Positions 22,726 through 32,081 of a DNA stretch of 64,000 bases are shown piece by piece (position 1 is the first letter of the stretch; the number at the start of each line of letters is the position of its first letter). A model generated the notes under the pieces. That model was not told the origin of the DNA and did no database searches. It was given only the letters and a program-made list of their open reading frames with translations. Source of the DNA: Pseudomonadota bacterium. Its GTDB lineage: Bacteria; Desulfobacterota; Binatia; Binatales; Binataceae. The DNA lies in NCBI GenBank assembly GCA_021324855.1, contig JAJPIG010000004.1:1-64000 (forward strand), in the 5' to 3' direction. A program made the translations under genes and the position numbers.

Positions 22726-22764
22726 TTTTGCATCGTCACGATGCGGCAATTTGCATCGATGGCC
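22726..22764 (+). promoter_or_regulatory. Candidate upstream activator site for kdp: perfect dyad plus repeated half-site
   Basis: GCATCG-TCA-CGATGC (22730-22744), and TTTGCATCG at 22727 and again at 22750 (23-bp spacing), the second inside palindromic CATCGATG. Confidence 0.4.
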
Positions 22765-22807: not shown

Positions 22808-22823
22808 GGGCACATTCGGTGCT
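22808..22823 (+). promoter_or_regulatory. Candidate sigma-54 (-24/-12) promoter upstream of kdpF
   Basis: GGGCACATTCGGTGCT against TGGCACGNNNNTTGCW: invariant GG-N10-GC present, three mismatches elsewhere; cognate-type NtrC regulator encoded in the same locus. Confidence 0.4.
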
Positions 22824-22835
22824 TTCTTCCCACCT

Positions 22836-22919
22836 GTGTTCGATGCCGTTTTTATCGTGTCAACGTTAATCTTTTTCGGCATTGCCCTGGCCTACGTCTG
22901 GGGGTGCACGCGGCTATGA
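22836..22919 (+). CDS. Unlisted 27-aa single-TM microprotein upstream of and overlapping kdpF
   Basis: GTG start; V(M)FDAVFIVSTLIFFGIALAYVWGCTRL*; its TGA overlaps the kdpF ATG as ATGA. Confidence 0.45.
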   Translation: MFDAVFIVSTLIFFGIALAYVWGCTRL

Positions 22920-23008
22920 CGACCTGGCAATTGATTATGGGCTCGGTAATGGCCGTCGGGCTGACGGCCTACTTGGTCTATGCGATGTTGCGGCCCGAGA
23001 AATTCTAG
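22916..23008 (+). CDS. kdpF: K+-transporting ATPase subunit F
   Basis: MTTWQLIMGSVMAVGLTAYLVYAMLRPEKF, classic KdpF ending in LLRPEKF-type motif; internal start of ORF 22751..23008. Confidence 0.92.
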   Translation: MTTWQLIMGSVMAVGLTAYLVYAMLRPEKF

Positions 23009-23012
23009 GGGC

Positions 23013-24743
23013 GTGCACTTGAGCAACGGGCTTATTCAAGTTGGCTTGTTTTCCGTTTTAGTCACCGCGGTGAGCGTACCGCTTGGGCTTTACATGGCGC
23101 GCGTATTCACGGATCGGAGGACATTTCTCGATCCAATACTGCGGCCATTGGAGCGCGCGATCTATCGAGTCTGTGGCGTCAATCCCGGTAGCGAACAAAG
23201 CTGGGTTCAATACGCAGTATCGATGCTGTTGTTCAGTGCGGTCGGGATGCTGCTGCTCTATGGAATGGAGCGGCTGCAATGGTTTCTGCCGCTCAACCCG
23301 CAGAAATTCGGCGGGGTCGCCCCGGATTTGGCATTCAACACCGCCGCCAGCTTCACCACGAATACCAACTGGCAGGCATACGCCGGCGAGTCTACGATGA
23401 GCTATTTCACACAAATGGCCGGGCTCGCGTTTCACAATTTCGTCTCGGCTGCCTCCGGGATCGCAGTCGCGATAGCGGTTATTCGCGGCCTTGTTAGACG
23501 CGCTGCTCAGACGATCGGAAACTTCTGGGTCGATCTCACCCGCGCGACGCTCTGGGTGTTGCTTCCGATCAGCGTCATCGGCGCATTGGTGCTCGTATGG
23601 CAGGGCGTGCCCGACAATTTCAGCGCTTATACGCAGGTAAAGACGGTCGAAGGGACGACACAAACCATCGCCCAAGGACCGGTTGCATCGCAGGAGATCA
23701 TCAAGGAACTGGGCACCAACGGCGGCGGATTTTTCAATGCCAACTCGTCGCATCCATATGAAAATCCTACGCCGCTTACGAACCTGATCGAATTAGTCGC
23801 AATCTTCGCGATCGGCGCCGGCCTGACGCATACGTTCGGCGAAATGGCCGGCGATCGACGCCAGGGATGGGCGCTGTTCGCAACGATGGCGATCCTGTTC
23901 CTCGTCGGGGCCGGGTCGGCGATATGGGCCGAGCAGCGCGGCAATCCGCAGTTCGCCGCGATGGGCATCGATCAGCGTGAAAGTGCTGGGCAAAGCGGCG
24001 GTAACATGGAAGGCAAGGAGGTCCGTTTCGGGATCGTCGACTCGGCGCTTTTCGCCACCGTCACGACTGATACCTCGTGCGGCGCCGTGAACTCGATGCA
24101 TGACAGCTACACGCCGCTCGGCGGCCTGGTGCCGCTGGTCAACATGCAAATCGGCGAGATCACCTTTGGCGGCGCCGGTTCGGGACTCTACGGGATGCTG
24201 GTGATGGCGATACTGGCGGTGTTCATCGCGGGCCTGATGGTCGGACGCACGCCTGAGTACCTCGGCAAGAAGATCGAGGGGCGCGAGATGAAGCTCGCGA
24301 TGCTTTTTATCCTGATCTTTCCCGCCGTGATTCTGGTTCCGGCCGGAATTGCAGTGGTGACCAAAGCCGGCCTCGCCGGGATCACGAACCCCGGTCCGCA
24401 TGGATTGTCGCAGATTCTCTATGCCTACACGGAAGCATCGGCGAACAACGGTTCGGCATTCGCCGGCCTCAACGCCAACACGCTCTTTTACAACTCGACG
24501 CTCGCGGTCGTGATGCTCTTCGGCCGGTTCTTGATGAAGGTGCCGGTGCTGGCGCTCGCCGGCTCGCTGGCGGTCAAGAAGTCTGTGCCGCCGAGCGCCG
24601 GGACCTTTCCGACCGACGGCGCAATCTTCGTCATCTTGCTAGTCGGCGTGATCTTGATCGTCGCAGCGCTGACGTTCTTTCCGGCTGACGCATTGGGACC
24701 GATCGTCGAACATCTCGTGATGATTCACGGCAAGCTCTACTAG
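23013..24743 (+). CDS. kdpA: K+-transporting ATPase subunit A
   Basis: GTG (23013) or TTG (23019) start; [95 protein letters not shown]. Confidence 0.97.
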
Positions 24744-24747
24744 GAGA

Positions 24748-26802
24748 ATGGGGTGGATTTCGATGGCTGAGCGGAAGGCGACCGCGCTGTGGGAACCGAC
24801 TATCGTGCGCGGCGCGCTAAGCGACGCGTTGTACAAGTTTGATCCTCGCGTTCAGGTCAGAAACCCGGTGATGTTCGTCGTTGAGGTGGCCGCCCTCGCA
24901 GTGACGATCATCCTGGTTCACGATTTCTTCGAGGGGCATTCCACGCTGGCCGGTTTTGAGTTGCAGATCGCCCTGTGGCTGTGGTTCACCGTCGGCTTCG
25001 CGAATTTCGCGGAGGCGATGGCGGAAGGGCGGGGCAAAGCGCAAGCCGACAATTTGCGCCGGACCCGCACCGAGACCCAGGCGAGGCAGCTAAAGGAAAA
25101 TCAGGAGATCATGGTGCCGGCTACATCGCTGCGCCGCGATGATGTCGTGCTCGTTAAAGCCGGTGAAGTGATTCCGGGCGACGGTGAGGTAATCGAAGGG
25201 GTCGCCGCGGTCAACGAAGCTGCGATTACCGGCGAATCCGCGCCGGTCATCCGGGAGAGTGGCGGCGACAGGAGCGCGGTCACCGGCGGCACCACGGTCA
25301 TCTCGGACTGGATCAAGGTGCGCATTACGGCGAACCCCGGCGAGACGTTCCTCGATCGGATGATCAGCCTGGTCGAAGGAGCGCATCGTCAGCGCACGCC
25401 GAATGAGATCGCGCTCAGCATCCTGCTCGCGGGCCTCACGATCATTTTCATGCTGGTCTGCGTGAGTCTTTATCCTTTCGCGCTTTACGGCGGCACAGCG
25501 CTCTCGCTGCCGGTGCTCGTAGCGCTTCTGGTCTGCCTCATTCCGACCACGATCGGCGGTCTGCTGTCAGCAATCGGCATAGCCGGGATGGATCGCCTGG
25601 TGCAGCACAACGTGCTCGCGATGTCAGGGCGGGCGGTCGAAGCTGCGGGCGACGTCGACACGCTGCTGCTCGACAAGACCGGAACCATCACGCTTGGAAA
25701 TCGGATGGCGACCGAATTCATCCCGGTGCTCGATGTACGCGCTGAGGACCTGGCGGACGCAGCGCAACTTGCGTCGCTCGCCGACGAGACTCCCGAAGGC
25801 CGCTCGATCGTGGTGCTTGCGAAAAACCAATATAACCTGCGCGGCCGCGAACTGGCGGAGCGCGATGCGCGGTTTATCCCGTTTTCAGCCCAGACGCGGA
25901 TGAGCGGCGTCGATATCGGAACGCGCCGGATTCGCAAGGGCGCGGCCGATCAGATCGTCAAGTTCGCGCGCGACAACGGAGCCACGATTCCGGAGGAGCT
26001 CGAGGGGATCGTCGAGCGGATCGCGCGGAACGGCGGGACTCCGCTGGTAGTTGCCGATGAGGCGCGAATCTACGGCGTCATTCATCTTAAGGACATTATC
26101 AAGGAGGGCATCAGAGAGCGTTTCGCGCGATTGCGCGCGATGGGGATGCGCACGGTGATGATCACGGGCGACAATCCGCTCACCGCCGCCGCGATCGCTC
26201 ACGAATCAGGCGTCGATGACTTCCGCGCCGAAGCGACGCCGGAGACCAAGCTTCGTCTGATTCGCGAGGAGCAGGCGCAAGGCAAGCTGGTCGCGATGAT
26301 CGGCGACGGCACCAACGACGCGCCGGCGCTGGCGCAGGCTGATGTCGGAATCGCGATGAACGCCGGGACGCAGGCGGCGCGCGAGGCCGGCAACATGGTC
26401 GATCTCGATTCGAATCCGACCAAGATCATGGAGGTGGTTGAGATCGGAAAACAGCTTTTGATCACGCGCGGGGCGTTGACCACATTCTCGATCGCGAACG
26501 ATGTCGCGAAGTACTTCGCCATTATTCCGGCGATGTTTGTAGTTGAATATCCTGAGCTGCAGTCGCTCAATGTAATGCATCTGGCGACGCCGCAGAGCGC
26601 GATCCTGTCGGCAGTCATCTTCAACGCCCTGATTATCATCGCGCTCATCCCGCTTGCGCTGCGCGGCGTGCAGTATCGGCCGCTCGGCGCGGCCGCGATC
26701 CTGAGCCGCAATCTGCTGCTCTACGGGCTCGGCGGCGTGATCGTGCCGTTTATCGGCATCAAGGCGATCGATCTCATCGTGGCAGCGCTACACATGGCGT
26801 GA
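24748..26802 (+). CDS. kdpB: K+-transporting P-type ATPase subunit B
   Basis: [102 protein letters not shown]. Confidence 0.98.
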
Positions 26803-26813
26803 GGGAAAAATCG

Positions 26814-27416
26814 ATGACGTTGTGGACGGCGATCAGGATGACCATAGTGTTGATGGTGCTGACCGGCATTGTCTATCCCCTCGCGATGGCCGGTCTTGCC
26901 AATCTGATTTTTCCGTATCAGGCGCAGGGCAGCCTGATTGTACGCGATGGCCGCGTGGTAGGGTCGGCGCTCATCGGACAGAATTTTTCGTCCGTGCGTT
27001 ATTTTCACGGGCGGCCGTCAGCCGCGGGCGACAAAGGCTACGATGCGTCTGCATCGAGCGGATCGAACCTGGGTCCGACCAACAAGACCCTGATCCAATC
27101 CGTGCGACAGCGGCTAAAGGACTTTCTCGAGAAGAACCCGGGCGTCTCGGCTTCGCAGGTGCCGGTCGATTTGGTCACGGCATCAGGCAGCGGGCTCGAT
27201 CCCGAAATCAGTCCGGCGGCTGCGAAGCTGCAGGTTGCGGGCGTCGCCAAGGCGCGCGGGCTGAGCGAGGATCAAGTCCGCGATTTGGTGCGCGCACACA
27301 CGCGGCGTCGATGGGCCGGCGTTTTCGGTGAACCGGGCGTCAATGTTCTCGAACTCAACCTAGCGCTCGATGATCTCAGCGCGACGCTCCGTGTGGGTAT
27401 GAAAACCTCTCCCTGA
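26814..27416 (+). CDS. kdpC: K+-transporting ATPase subunit C
   Basis: MTLWTAIRMTIVLMVLTGIVYPLAMAGLANLIFPYQAQGSLI, YFHGRPSAAGDKGYDASASSGSNLGPTNKTL; ORF can start at 26799. Confidence 0.97.
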   Translation: MTLWTAIRMTIVLMVLTGIVYPLAMAGLANLIFPYQAQGSLIVRDGRVVGSALIGQNFSSVRYFHGRPSAAGDKGYDASASSGSNLGPTNKTLIQSVRQRLKDFLEKNPGVSASQVPVDLVTASGSGLDPEISPAAAKLQVAGVAKARGLSEDQVRDLVRAHTRRRWAGVFGEPGVNVLELNLALDDLSATLRVGMKTSP

Positions 27417-27425
27417 GGCAACGAG

Positions 27426-27731
27426 ATGCTTCAATCGATTATCATCATGGTGGGCGCGGCGCTGCTCGAAACCGGCGGCGATGCGATGATTCGTCATGGG
27501 CTCACGCGCCAGTGGATTTATTTGATCATGGGAGCCGCCAGCCTCGTCGTCTATGGCGTCCTGGTGAACCAGGGCGCACTCGATTTCAGCCGGCTGATGG
27601 GTTGCTACATCGCGATCTTCTTCATCGTCTCGCAGATCGTCGCATACGCGTTCTTCGCTCAGATTCCGGGGGTTCGAACCGTAATTGGTGGTCTGCTGAT
27701 AATCGTTGGTGGGCTGACGGTCCTGACCTGA
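27426..27731 (+). CDS. Small four-TM membrane protein (SMR/YnfA-like architecture) inside the kdp operon
   Basis: 101 aa, four hydrophobic segments: MLQSIIIMVGAALLETGGDAMIRHGLTRQWIYLIMGAASLVVYGVL...GGLLIIVGGLTVLT; 9 nt after kdpC. Confidence 0.75.
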   Translation: MLQSIIIMVGAALLETGGDAMIRHGLTRQWIYLIMGAASLVVYGVLVNQGALDFSRLMGCYIAIFFIVSQIVAYAFFAQIPGVRTVIGGLLIIVGGLTVLT

Positions 27732-27796: not shown

Positions 27797-28951
27797 ATGA
27801 CTGAGGAGGAGCGGAAGGATCCGGAAGCATTTCTCGGCCTTACACAACAGGCGCAGAAAGGGCGTCTGAAGGTCTACCTCGGCAGCGCTGCGGGCGTGGG
27901 TAAGACCTACCGGATGCTGGAAGAAGCGCACCAGCTACGCGAGCATGGGCACGATGTGGTGCTCGGCCTTGTCGAAACTCACAATCGCGCAGAGACGGCT
28001 GCCCGGATCGGCGACCTGGAAATTGTCCCGTTGCGCAAGATTCCTTATCGGGGCGTGGTGCTCGAAGAGATGGACGTCGAGGCGATCCTCGCGCGCAAAC
28101 CCGAATACGCGGTGGTCGACGAGCTCGCGCATACTAACGTTCCCGGTTCGAAGCACAACAAGCGGTACCAGGATGTCGAAGATCTGATCGCCAACGGCAT
28201 CAATGTAATTACCGCGCTCAACATTCAGCACCTCGAAAGTCTCAACCAGATGGTGCGGCGCATCACCGGGGTTGAGATTCGCGAGACCGTTCCCGATACG
28301 TTTCTCAGCCGGGCCGATCATGTCGTCACGGTTGACATCTCGGTCGACGAGCTGCGACAGCGGCTCCGGGAGGGCAGGATCTATCCGCCCGATCAAATCG
28401 AGCAGGCGCTCAAGAATTTTTTTCGCTCCAGCAATCTCGCATCGCTCCGCGAGCTGGCGCTGCGCGAAGTGGCGCGCGATCAGAGCCGGCAGCGCGAGGA
28501 GCTGGAATCCCTCAAGCGCGAGCGGGGCCGGCGTACCGCGGTCACCGAGCGCGTGATGGTCTGCCTGTCATCCAATCCTCACGGCACGAAAGCGCTGCTG
28601 CGCAAAGCGGCACGCGCGGCGGTCCACCGCAACGCCGACTGGTACGCGGTGCACGTCGAGACTCCATCCGAATCGATGCAGAAAATCAGTACGGCTGATT
28701 TCCGCGCCCTGCTCGATAACATAAATCTCGCTGCCGACATGGGCGCCGAGGTGGTCTGGCTCAAGGGGGAGGATGTGGTCAAAGCGCTGCTCGACTTCGC
28801 GCAGGACCGCAGGGTCACCCTGATGGTGATCGGGCGCACTCGGCCCGGCGCGTGGCGATGGCTGCTGCGCCGCTCCGTGACTTCGAAGTTGCTTGCGCAG
28901 GCGCGCGATTTTGATATCGAGGTCGCCGCGCAGGAGACTGACGAGGCCTAG
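27797..28951 (+). CDS. Truncated KdpD: N-terminal sensor domain + universal stress protein domain, no kinase
   Basis: GRLKVYLGSAAGVGKTYRMLEEAHQL (Walker A), VDELAHTNVPGSKHNKRYQDVEDLIANGINVITALNIQHLESLN; ends after USP region, 384 aa. Confidence 0.93.
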   Translation: MTEEERKDPEAFLGLTQQAQKGRLKVYLGSAAGVGKTYRMLEEAHQLREHGHDVVLGLVETHNRAETAARIGDLEIVPLRKIPYRGVVLEEMDVEAILARKPEYAVVDELAHTNVPGSKHNKRYQDVEDLIANGINVITALNIQHLESLNQMVRRITGVEIRETVPDTFLSRADHVVTVDISVDELRQRLREGRIYPPDQIEQALKNFFRSSNLASLRELALREVARDQSRQREELESLKRERGRRTAVTERVMVCLSSNPHGTKALLRKAARAAVHRNADWYAVHVETPSESMQKISTADFRALLDNINLAADMGAEVVWLKGEDVVKALLDFAQDRRVTLMVIGRTRPGAWRWLLRRSVTSKLLAQARDFDIEVAAQETDEA

Positions 28952-28953
28952 CG

Positions 28954-30765
28954 ATGCATCCTCCATCATTGCGTAATCGAATCCGCAACGGCGCGCTGGC
29001 GATGCTTATAATCGCGCTGGTCTTCGGCGCGCTCGCGTTGCCGGAAGTGCATCAGTTGGGCAGTTCGATTCGCGAGACGCTCTACCGCAATTACGTGAGC
29101 ATCGAAGCCGCGCGCCATATGCATGCCGCCCTTTGGGACCTTCAGCTCGCGTTGCGCGATGGCAAGGCGTTGCAGGTACTGCCGCACAGCCGCGACGAGT
29201 TCATGCGTTGGATCGAAGTTGAGCAGGGCGACATTACGGAGGTCGGCGAGGGGCCGCTCGCTCACGATATTCGCCAGCGTTCCGAGCGGCTTTTCGACGG
29301 CATCGCACGCGACGGCGGCCGAGCTCCCGGCGCTCACGACGCAGAGTTCTCGGCGCTTCACGCGGAACTCGATCGATTGATCGAGATGAATCGCGACGCG
29401 ATGTTTCGGGCCGACAGCCGCGCCGTCCGCATCGGCGATCGCCTCACGTACGAGTTGGGCGCGGGCTTGATGGTATTGCTGCTTTTCGGTTTCGCGCTGG
29501 CCTGGACGCTTGCCTGGAACATCTCACGGCCGCTCGCGGAGCTTACCGATCGCCTGCGCAGCTTCAGCCTGCGTGGACCATCGGTGCGGCTCAGCAAGCA
29601 GCCGGTCGCAGAACTCGACGCGGTTGCCGCCGAGTTCAACAAGATGGCGGAACGGCTCGAGCAGTTCGAGAAACTGAACGTCGATCGGCTGGTCTACGAA
29701 AAGAACAAGACCGAGGCGATTATCGAGAACATCGAGGACGGGATCGTGCTGATTGATTCCGAGGGCGTCATCACGCATCTCAACGAGGTCGCGGCAATAA
29801 TCCTCGGCGTCGAACGCGAAGAGGCGTTGGGCAGCGCTTTCGATGATCTCAACACCAGCCATCCGCATTATCTGCGCGTGCGCGACGCGCTTCACGCCGC
29901 GGCCCATCAGCCACTCGATTCGCAGCGCGTCGAGGTCGACCTTCACGTTCGAGGCCGCGACCACACCTACGTTCTAAAGCCGGTGCCGCTGCGGCAGGGC
30001 GATGGCAAGTCCCTGGGAACTATTCTAATTCTTCAGGACATCACATATCTGCGCGACAAGGACCGCGCGCGGACCAACCTCGTCGCAACGCTCTCTCATG
30101 AGCTCAAGACCCCGTTGACGTCGCTCGCGCTTTCGGCCGAGTTGCTTGAGCGGGACAAGGAGAAATTCGATCCCAAGCAGCGCGAGCTGCTGGCGACGAT
30201 TCTCGAGGACGTGGCGCGGATTCGTAATCTCGCCAACGATCTCCTCGATCTGGCGCGCGGCGAGGCCGGCGCGATCTCGATGCGCACGGTTCCCGTCGAT
30301 CTCGATCGGCTGCTCGCGGCCGTCGTCAAGACCTTTCAGCTCCAGGCGGAACAAAAGCAGGTAACGCTTCGCGAACTCGTGGCGCAGCCGCTGCCGCAAA
30401 TCATGGCCGATCCGGTAAAGCTCTCATGGGTGGTATCCAACCTGATCGCAAATGCGCTGCGGTATACACCCGCGGGCGGCGCCATCGAGCTTGCGGCTGA
30501 AGCGGCGGGCGATATCGTCCGGCTCAAGGTGAGCGATACCGGGCGCGGCGTCGCGCCCGAGGTGCGCGATCATTTGTTCGAACGGTTCGCGCAATGGAAC
30601 ATCAACGGTTCCGAGCCCGGTTCGGCCGGGTTGGGCCTCGCGATCGCCAAGGAAATCGTCGAAGCGCACGGCGGTCGGATTTTTGTTGACAGCGTGCTTG
30701 GCCAGGGCACCTGTTTCACGGTAGAGCTGCCGAAGGCGGCGGAGAAGCGATGGGCAGGATCCTGA
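28954..30765 (+). CDS. Sensor histidine kinase (TM-HAMP-PAS-HisKA-HATPase)
   Basis: HisKA LVATLSHELKTPLTSLALSAELLER; N box VVSNLIANALRYTPAGG; G boxes DTGRGV / GLGLAIAKEIVEAHGG; HAMP-type NISRPLAELTDRLRSF. Confidence 0.95.
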   Translation: MHPPSLRNRIRNGALAMLIIALVFGALALPEVHQLGSSIRETLYRNYVSIEAARHMHAALWDLQLALRDGKALQVLPHSRDEFMRWIEVEQGDITEVGEGPLAHDIRQRSERLFDGIARDGGRAPGAHDAEFSALHAELDRLIEMNRDAMFRADSRAVRIGDRLTYELGAGLMVLLLFGFALAWTLAWNISRPLAELTDRLRSFSLRGPSVRLSKQPVAELDAVAAEFNKMAERLEQFEKLNVDRLVYEKNKTEAIIENIEDGIVLIDSEGVITHLNEVAAIILGVEREEALGSAFDDLNTSHPHYLRVRDALHAAAHQPLDSQRVEVDLHVRGRDHTYVLKPVPLRQGDGKSLGTILILQDITYLRDKDRARTNLVATLSHELKTPLTSLALSAELLERDKEKFDPKQRELLATILEDVARIRNLANDLLDLARGEAGAISMRTVPVDLDRLLAAVVKTFQLQAEQKQVTLRELVAQPLPQIMADPVKLSWVVSNLIANALRYTPAGGAIELAAEAAGDIVRLKVSDTGRGVAPEVRDHLFERFAQWNINGSEPGSAGLGLAIAKEIVEAHGGRIFVDSVLGQGTCFTVELPKAAEKRWAGS

Positions 30766-32081
30766 TCGTCGACGACGAGAAGAACATCCGCACTCACCTG
30801 GCCACCTTCTTCGAAGGTTCGGGCCATCGCGTTGCGGCCGCTGAGACTGGCGCGCAGGCTATCAAGCTGATCGACGCGGAAAGCTTCGACCTCGTGTTGA
30901 CCGACTTCCGGATGGCCGAGATGAACGGTCTCGAACTGCTGCGACGAATCAAACAGCAGTCGCCGGACACGGTGGTAATCCTGATGACCGCGTTCGCCAC
31001 CATCGATAACGCCGTCGCGGCGATGAAAGCCGGGGCGTATGACTACCTGACGAAGCCTTTTTCGCTCAATGAGATCGAGCAGGTCGTCGAACGCGCGTTG
31101 GAGTTTCAGCGTTTGCGGCTCGAGAACCGCGCGCTGCGCGACACGGTCGAGGAGCGCCCGTTCCTCGAGACGAAAAGTCCCGCGATGCGCCATCTGCTCG
31201 AAACGGCGCGCCAGGCTGCGGCCAGCGATGTCACGGTACTCCTGACCGGTGAGAGCGGGACGGGCAAGAATGTGATTGCGCGCCAGATTCATCAATGGAG
31301 CCGGCGCGCCGAGCGGCCATTCGTCGTTGTCAACTGCACCACGCTCTCCGAGCATCTGCTGGAGAGCGAGCTTTTCGGCCACGTGCGGGGCGCGTTTACC
31401 GGCGCGGTCAAGGACAAGCCGGGACGCCTCGAAGCTGCGGATGGCGGCACGGTGTTCCTCGACGAAATCGCTGACCTGAGCCCGCCTCTACAAACCAAAT
31501 TTCTACGCTTTGTGCAGGAGCAATGCTTCGAGCGCGTGGGCGGCGATCGCACGATTCGGGTCGACATCCGGATCGTCGCGGCATCCAATCGCGACCTCGC
31601 GGCCGAAGTCGCAGCCCGCCGCTTCCGCGACGATCTCTATTATCGCCTCAACGTCATCACGCTGCGGGTGCCGGCGCTGCGCGAACGCCCTGAAGACATC
31701 CTGCCACTTGCGGAAAGGCTGTTGTCGTCAGCGGCAATCCGCAATCGACGGCCCGGGCTGAGCTTTTCGTCCGATGCTGCCGCCGCGATCAAACGCTACC
31801 GATGGTCGGGGAACGTCCGCGAGCTGCGCAATGCCGTCGAGCGGGCGGCGGTCCTCGCTCGTGGCCAGATAATCGTGCCCGACGATCTGCCCGACGAGCT
31901 CTTCCGCGAGAGTGCGGCTGCTTTTGCCGAGCCATCCACGACTGCCAGCCTCGAAGATTTGGAGCGCGAGCACATCGTACGTGTGCTGGCCGAATCGCCG
32001 ACGCTCGAGGACGCGGCCGAGACGCTCGGCATCAACGTGTCGACGCTCTGGCGCAAGCGTAAGCGTTACAAAATCGACTAG
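30750..32081 (+). CDS. NtrC-family sigma-54-dependent response regulator
   Basis: Receiver with LVLTDFRMAEMNG; AAA+ GESGTGKNVIARQIH, sigma-54 contact loop ELFGHVRGAFTGAVKDK; C-terminal HTH LEDAAETLGINVSTLWRKRKRYKID; overlaps kinase by 16 nt. Confidence 0.96.
   Translation: MGRILIVDDEKNIRTHLATFFEGSGHRVAAAETGAQAIKLIDAESFDLVLTDFRMAEMNGLELLRRIKQQSPDTVVILMTAFATIDNAVAAMKAGAYDYLTKPFSLNEIEQVVERALEFQRLRLENRALRDTVEERPFLETKSPAMRHLLETARQAAASDVTVLLTGESGTGKNVIARQIHQWSRRAERPFVVVNCTTLSEHLLESELFGHVRGAFTGAVKDKPGRLEAADGGTVFLDEIADLSPPLQTKFLRFVQEQCFERVGGDRTIRVDIRIVAASNRDLAAEVAARRFRDDLYYRLNVITLRVPALRERPEDILPLAERLLSSAAIRNRRPGLSFSSDAAAAIKRYRWSGNVRELRNAVERAAVLARGQIIVPDDLPDELFRESAAAFAEPSTTASLEDLEREHIVRVLAESPTLEDAAETLGINVSTLWRKRKRYKID

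Follow-up and report, generated by a model that had tools for sequence, protein, structure and literature searches.

A conserved single-helix microprotein encoded directly ahead of kdpF is a candidate second peptide subunit of non-enteric Kdp pumps

The mechanism of the textbook pump KdpFABC has been worked out in E. coli, and the solved structures of the complex that we know of come from E. coli. Single-transmembrane (TM) peptides encoded in the operon of a membrane complex are an already known kind of protein, and single-TM peptides that act on kinases are known as well. In E. coli, KdpABC is stabilized by KdpF (Gassel et al. 1999, as cited in PMC11364881), and for mycobacteria a discussion of regulatory membrane peptides includes KdpF (PMC3618439). 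The operon of Clostridium acetobutylicum is given as kdpZYABCXDE in PMC5401905, citing Treuner-Lange 1997. For Caulobacter kdp, PMC8552747 reports a structured 5′ region of ~100 nt as a UTR; as described there, this region is long enough to hold an ORF the size of the one analyzed below.

We analyzed a microgene directly ahead of kdpF in a member of the Binataceae, within a window of 64,000 nucleotides, which is the whole stretch of DNA studied. Its frame occupies 22836–22919 on the forward strand and comprises 27 codons (MFDAVFIVSTLIFFGIALAYVWGCTRL) from a GTG at 22836, the sole ATG, GTG or TTG start in the stop-to-stop frame, to a TGA at 22917–22919; both the letters and the positions agree in full with an earlier sequence-only reading of this DNA. 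The peptide has one predicted TM helix at approximately residues 4–22, an N-terminal Asp and a C-terminal GCTRL tail, in line with that reading's account of a helix of nearly whole length followed by a Cys-bearing tail. Its best 19-residue hydropathy is 2.28, close to the median of 2.2 for the microprotein family, most members of which are 26–29 aa long, a size below 50 aa with one TM helix. Across the family, the Asp is conserved in 94% of members, the FF pair in 81% and 88%, the Cys in 74% and the Leu in 77%. The N-terminus is net-negative and the tail basic or neutral, and the predicted topology is a single membrane crossing with the N-terminus outside and the C-terminus inside.

The microgene stands at the head of a kdp operon on the same strand, and its stop codon overlaps the kdpF ATG at 22916 within an ATGA (22916–22919), again as previously read. 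The 30-aa KdpF (22916–23008) matches PF09604 at 38.2 bits and TIGR02115 at 38.5 bits. It is followed by kdpA (23019–24743; PF03814, E = 1e-252), whose probable start is a TTG at 23019 (the mechanical ORF runs from 22980), by kdpB (24748–26802; E1-E2 ATPase and HAD domains) and by kdpC (26799–27416; PF02669). Further downstream lie genes for a separate protein with KdpD N-terminal and Usp domains (27797–28951; PF02702, PF00582), a sensor kinase with HAMP-PAS-HisKA-HATPase domain matches (28954–30765) and, in KdpE's place, an NtrC-type sigma-54-dependent response regulator (30750–32081; PF00158, PF00072, PF02954). The majority of the Binataceae loci read have the same split sensor set (27797–32081). 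Between kdpC and the KdpD-N gene, a membrane ORF resembling UPF0060/YnfA (27426–27731) scores just below the Pfam cut-off, and locus L304 has a homologue at the same place.

As checks on its proposal, the sequence-only reading had named in-frame conservation upstream of kdpF in close relatives and purifying selection on aligned copies, and both are found. The microgene, with its 4-nt kdpF overlap, is present in each of the 34 primary kdp operons sampled from Binataceae, and the consensus of these copies, MxDLxFxxATxxFFAIALAYVxGCxRL, is nearly fixed in length. Selection is strong: Binataceae microgenes have a pairwise dN/dS of 0.18 in frame, compared with 1.14 and 2.1 when the frame is shifted, and a Pseudomonadota sample gives 0.26 compared with 0.94 and 2.1; although these pairs are not mutually independent, the frames differ widely. 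A profile trained on 82 non-Binataceae sequences matches the window microgene at 37 bits (E about 1e-8; 8.5e-9 at 100,000 sequences), its only significant match among 1,895 window frames, where E is 9.6e-9. Across 57 whole genomes, whose kdp loci were located independently with KdpA, a profile search returned 35 strong matches (E ≤ 1e-6), all at kdp loci, with the next best at E = 0.005; these E-values are partly circular because the alignment behind them includes the window copy, a circularity that the non-Binataceae profile avoids. Judged by these patterns of sequence change, the window microgene is a real gene under purifying selection. A weak second match (G012:C353:4495-4560; E = 0.005), ~290 nt upstream of the real copy, is possibly a decayed duplicate. 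Second, divergent kdp operons in Binataceae (L184, L188, L191–L193) bear a variant microgene, MDLWTWIP...CFAFLxACERI.

The earlier impression that ORFs with a YVxGCxRL tail precede kdpF in other bacteria proved correct in both a plasmid search and a genome scan. When the 27 aa were compared with 72,556 plasmids by tblastn, four matches were obtained, and the three inspected, from Azospirillum and Rhizobium, lie directly upstream of kdpF. The degenerate pattern FF[AG]xxxxYVx[GA]CxxL-stop, which is free of kdp information, occurs at no fewer than 116 loci (≥116) in 257 Gb of genomes. Among the matches listed, kdpA lies downstream on the same strand in 111 of the 111 assessable loci, that is, those with enough downstream DNA (the Verrucomicrobia copy is left out and one of two Phycisphaerales loci included), at a distance of 130–267 nt in 110 and 778 nt in one. 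Going by their record titles, the matches listed include Alphaproteobacteria, Binataceae, Myxococcota, Armatimonadota, Thermomicrobiales, Melainabacteria-type Cyanobacteria, Phycisphaerales, Acidobacteria and Verrucomicrobia. By this sequence evidence, the linkage of the microprotein to kdp appears specific and near-absolute. The gap between microgene and kdpF varies from −4 to about +19 nt, with the genes ~3–19 nt apart in many lineages outside Binataceae; the ATGA overlap is constant in Binataceae but not general elsewhere.

Prevalence was scored at unselected KdpA loci with a profile threshold of 10 bits, a score reached by 0 of about 23,000 control frames. The microgene was present at 47/69 loci in Pseudomonadota, 10/13 in Myxococcota, 16/28 in Chloroflexota, 5/28 in Cyanobacteriota and 7/24 in other families of the window's phylum, all of which are lower bounds because clear but divergent copies score below threshold. 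Many Pseudomonadota and most Cyanobacteriota sampled are without it, and it was not seen at the sampled E. coli, Bacillota or haloarchaeal kdp loci. Since the sampled E. coli locus lacks the microgene, the microprotein is not essential to all Kdp pumps. On the KdpA tree, whose FastTree support is modest in places, presence follows lineage: 183 labelled rows, from which 11 borderline ones had been excluded, show 14 state changes, and shuffled labels give far more. A plasmid panel, which is illustrative and no independent count because eight of its sequences are in the profile training set, shows the microgene in Streptomyces (two records), Deinococcus, Acidithiobacillus, Burkholderiaceae, Acetobacter, Sphingomonas, Sinorhizobium and Paracoccus; in the same panel it was not seen in E. 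coli, Proteus, Moraxella, Ideonella, L. plantarum, S. epidermidis, Halobacterium or Synechococcus.

Annotation has mostly passed the gene by. No family in Pfam, NCBIfam or PDB matches the 27-aa microprotein above cut-off; sub-threshold matches to PetM, LH1 beta, PVV-CTERM, LapA and photosystem II T are attributed to the general resemblance of hydrophobic helices. The microgene is unannotated in most records, and rhizobial plasmid copies are almost all unannotated, a few being called 'hypothetical protein'. Two database proteins belong to the same family and occupy the same locus position: WP_191287747.1 (Mycetohabitans, 34 aa), labelled 'potassium ABC transporter ATPase', and WP_275451547.1 (Azospirillum), labelled 'hypothetical protein'. 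The former label is a misnomer because 34 aa cannot be an ATPase, and neither label carries a function. No description of the family was found in the open-access literature: the main texts of the S. meliloti Ribo-seq and sORFdb papers do not mention kdp, and the D. radiodurans peptidome paper mentions KdpF alone, in passing. The family thus appears undescribed in the sources searched.

Upstream of the window microgene, a sigma-54-like −24/−12 element (GGGCACATTCGGTGCT; 22808–22823, forward strand) gives a predicted TSS at 22834, 2 nt before the GTG, and hence a 2-nt leader. Sigma-54 is encoded in the genome (rpoN), and an NtrC-type regulator in the operon. Defined as GG-N10-GC with at least 8 of 11 consensus letters, the element starts 28–30 nt before the microgene start codon in 24 of the 34 Binataceae loci, with 0.2 expected for the 8-nt window tested, and at −33 in one further locus; setting +1 at 12 nt after the C of GC yields leaders of 2–4 nt in those 24. 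None of 43 Pseudomonadota loci having the microgene showed a sigma-54-like element at that spacing. By a loose match criterion, SD-like sequence precedes the microgene in 28/34 Pseudomonadota loci versus 8/31 in Binataceae, and none precedes the window copy, as the sequence-only reading had remarked. That reading took a leaderless start as a point of tension; leaderless translation instead looks like conserved design, because the promoter-to-start spacing is fixed in 24/34 Binataceae loci, and initiation on the Binataceae microgene is probably leaderless.

The regulator genes broadly accompany this promoter. An NtrC-type regulator co-occurs with the site in nearly all site-bearing relatives whose downstream DNA was read, L016 being without one within about 10 kb; L179 and L181 have neither site nor NtrC-type regulator, and L180 is without the site and without all regulators within about 10 kb. 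The association is imperfect because L178 keeps the NtrC gene with no sigma-54-like site at the usual position, as does a single genus (L021, L022, L026) in which the regulator is present and the site at the usual spacing is not. Farther upstream in the window (22730–22760, forward strand), the TGCA-containing repeats GCATCG-TCA-CGATGC and TTGCATCGA are candidate binding sites for the NtrC-type regulator. TTTGCA/TTGCAA 6-mers occur 30–150 nt upstream of the microgene in 12/34 Binataceae loci versus 0.7–0.8 in shuffles, and these boxes are candidate enhancer sites.

Within the microgene, GGGGG in codons 22–23 (22900–22904, forward strand), 11 nt before the kdpF ATG, resembles an SD site for kdpF. 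Of 32 Binataceae copies, 28 use GGG or GGA for Gly23, whereas these make up 33% of the Gly codons in KdpA (binomial p = 2e-10, relatedness ignored); among other lineages with a Gly-Cys tail the figure is 1/10. This codon bias fits an SD-like site serving kdpF from within the microgene, and the layout suggests that translation of the two genes may be coupled.

On this evidence, the microprotein is probably a lineage-dependent accessory peptide of KdpFABC that works like KdpF, with leaderless sigma-54 expression in Binataceae. It shows the size, the single TM helix and the conserved linkage to one membrane complex that mark KdpF- or CydX-like accessory peptides. The microgene would be translated into an inner-membrane protein of 26–29 residues whose single helix packs on KdpA, KdpB or KdpF, and this packing would stabilize or tune the complex, with a possible effect on transport. 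In Binataceae, the NtrC-type regulator would drive the sigma-54 promoter to give a transcript beginning 2–4 nt before the microgene; the ribosome would enter leaderless on the microgene and then initiate on kdpF through the ATGA overlap and the SD-like G-run in the last codons. A wider formulation, in which many non-enteric Kdp pumps across at least eight phyla have an overlooked second peptide subunit and reading of the whole Binataceae operon starts on a leaderless microgene under sigma-54 control, is put forward tentatively.

Operon position alone cannot separate a pump subunit from a regulator. The microprotein might sense membrane or K+ state and feed back on the sensor kinase, as MgrB does, or control Kdp turnover; kinase-acting single-TM peptides set a precedent, the gene's position implies co-expression with the operon, and PMC3618439 discusses mycobacterial KdpF in similar terms. 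However, loci that lack the usual regulators or have others in their place (L179, L180, L181) retain the microgene, and its presence tracks the KdpA lineage. It is found alongside a split KdpD plus NtrC, alongside NtrC alone, and where no regulator lies within about 10 kb, and this persistence whatever the regulators points to the pump rather than to one sensor. We therefore regard a regulatory role as unlikely, albeit worth keeping in view.

It is unlikely, too, that the microgene acts only in cis as a leader ORF whose translation sets kdpF–kdpA expression, the peptide being incidental. The microgene is the first ORF of the predicted transcript and, in Binataceae, combines a predicted leaderless start, the ATGA overlap and internal SD-like codons, all of which would suit such a role. 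Yet the amino-acid sequence is conserved across phyla while synonymous change is free (dN/dS 0.18–0.26), the conserved features include the TM helix, near-fixed length, Asp and C-terminal tail, and with a kdpF gap of −4 to about +19 the overlap does not hold across lineages. The pattern expected of a leader peptide or attenuator, in which RNA or position is constrained instead of protein, was not observed. Equal size, a single TM helix and adjacency might suggest a divergent KdpF duplicate with the same role, but homology to KdpF was rejected: hhalign gives a profile–profile probability of 2.4%, the microprotein matches neither of the KdpF families PF09604 and TIGR02115, the signature motifs differ and both genes occur together, making this reading very improbable. 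That a short frame with a GTG start and no SD is a spurious hydrophobic ORF in the 5′ region is scarcely credible, being refuted by in-frame conservation across phyla, with the selection tests also against it.

As a small membrane protein that spans phyla yet escaped annotation, the microprotein offers a clear, testable case. If it is indeed a subunit, current descriptions of Kdp complexes from many other bacteria are incomplete, and constructs starting at kdpF would leave out a conserved component; practical interest is high because the reference pump, that of E. coli, lacks it. The Binataceae kdp operon is in addition a candidate sigma-54-dependent leaderless operon.

Among known systems, KdpF is the nearest likeness, a single-TM peptide of ~30 aa from an adjacent gene of the same operon. 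The microprotein differs from it in its motif (MxD..FF...YVxGC[DE]RL versus ...YLVYALxxPEKF), in having no sequence or profile relation to it, and in being absent from the sampled E. coli locus. CydX and AcrZ are likewise small single-TM proteins tied to one membrane complex and often unannotated; no sequence relation to them was found, and, unlike theirs, the putative partner of the microprotein is a P-type ATPase/channel hybrid. The kdpZ and kdpY genes of C. acetobutylicum, in the operon order given in the paper cited above, likewise stand ahead of kdpA in their operon, a likeness of position.
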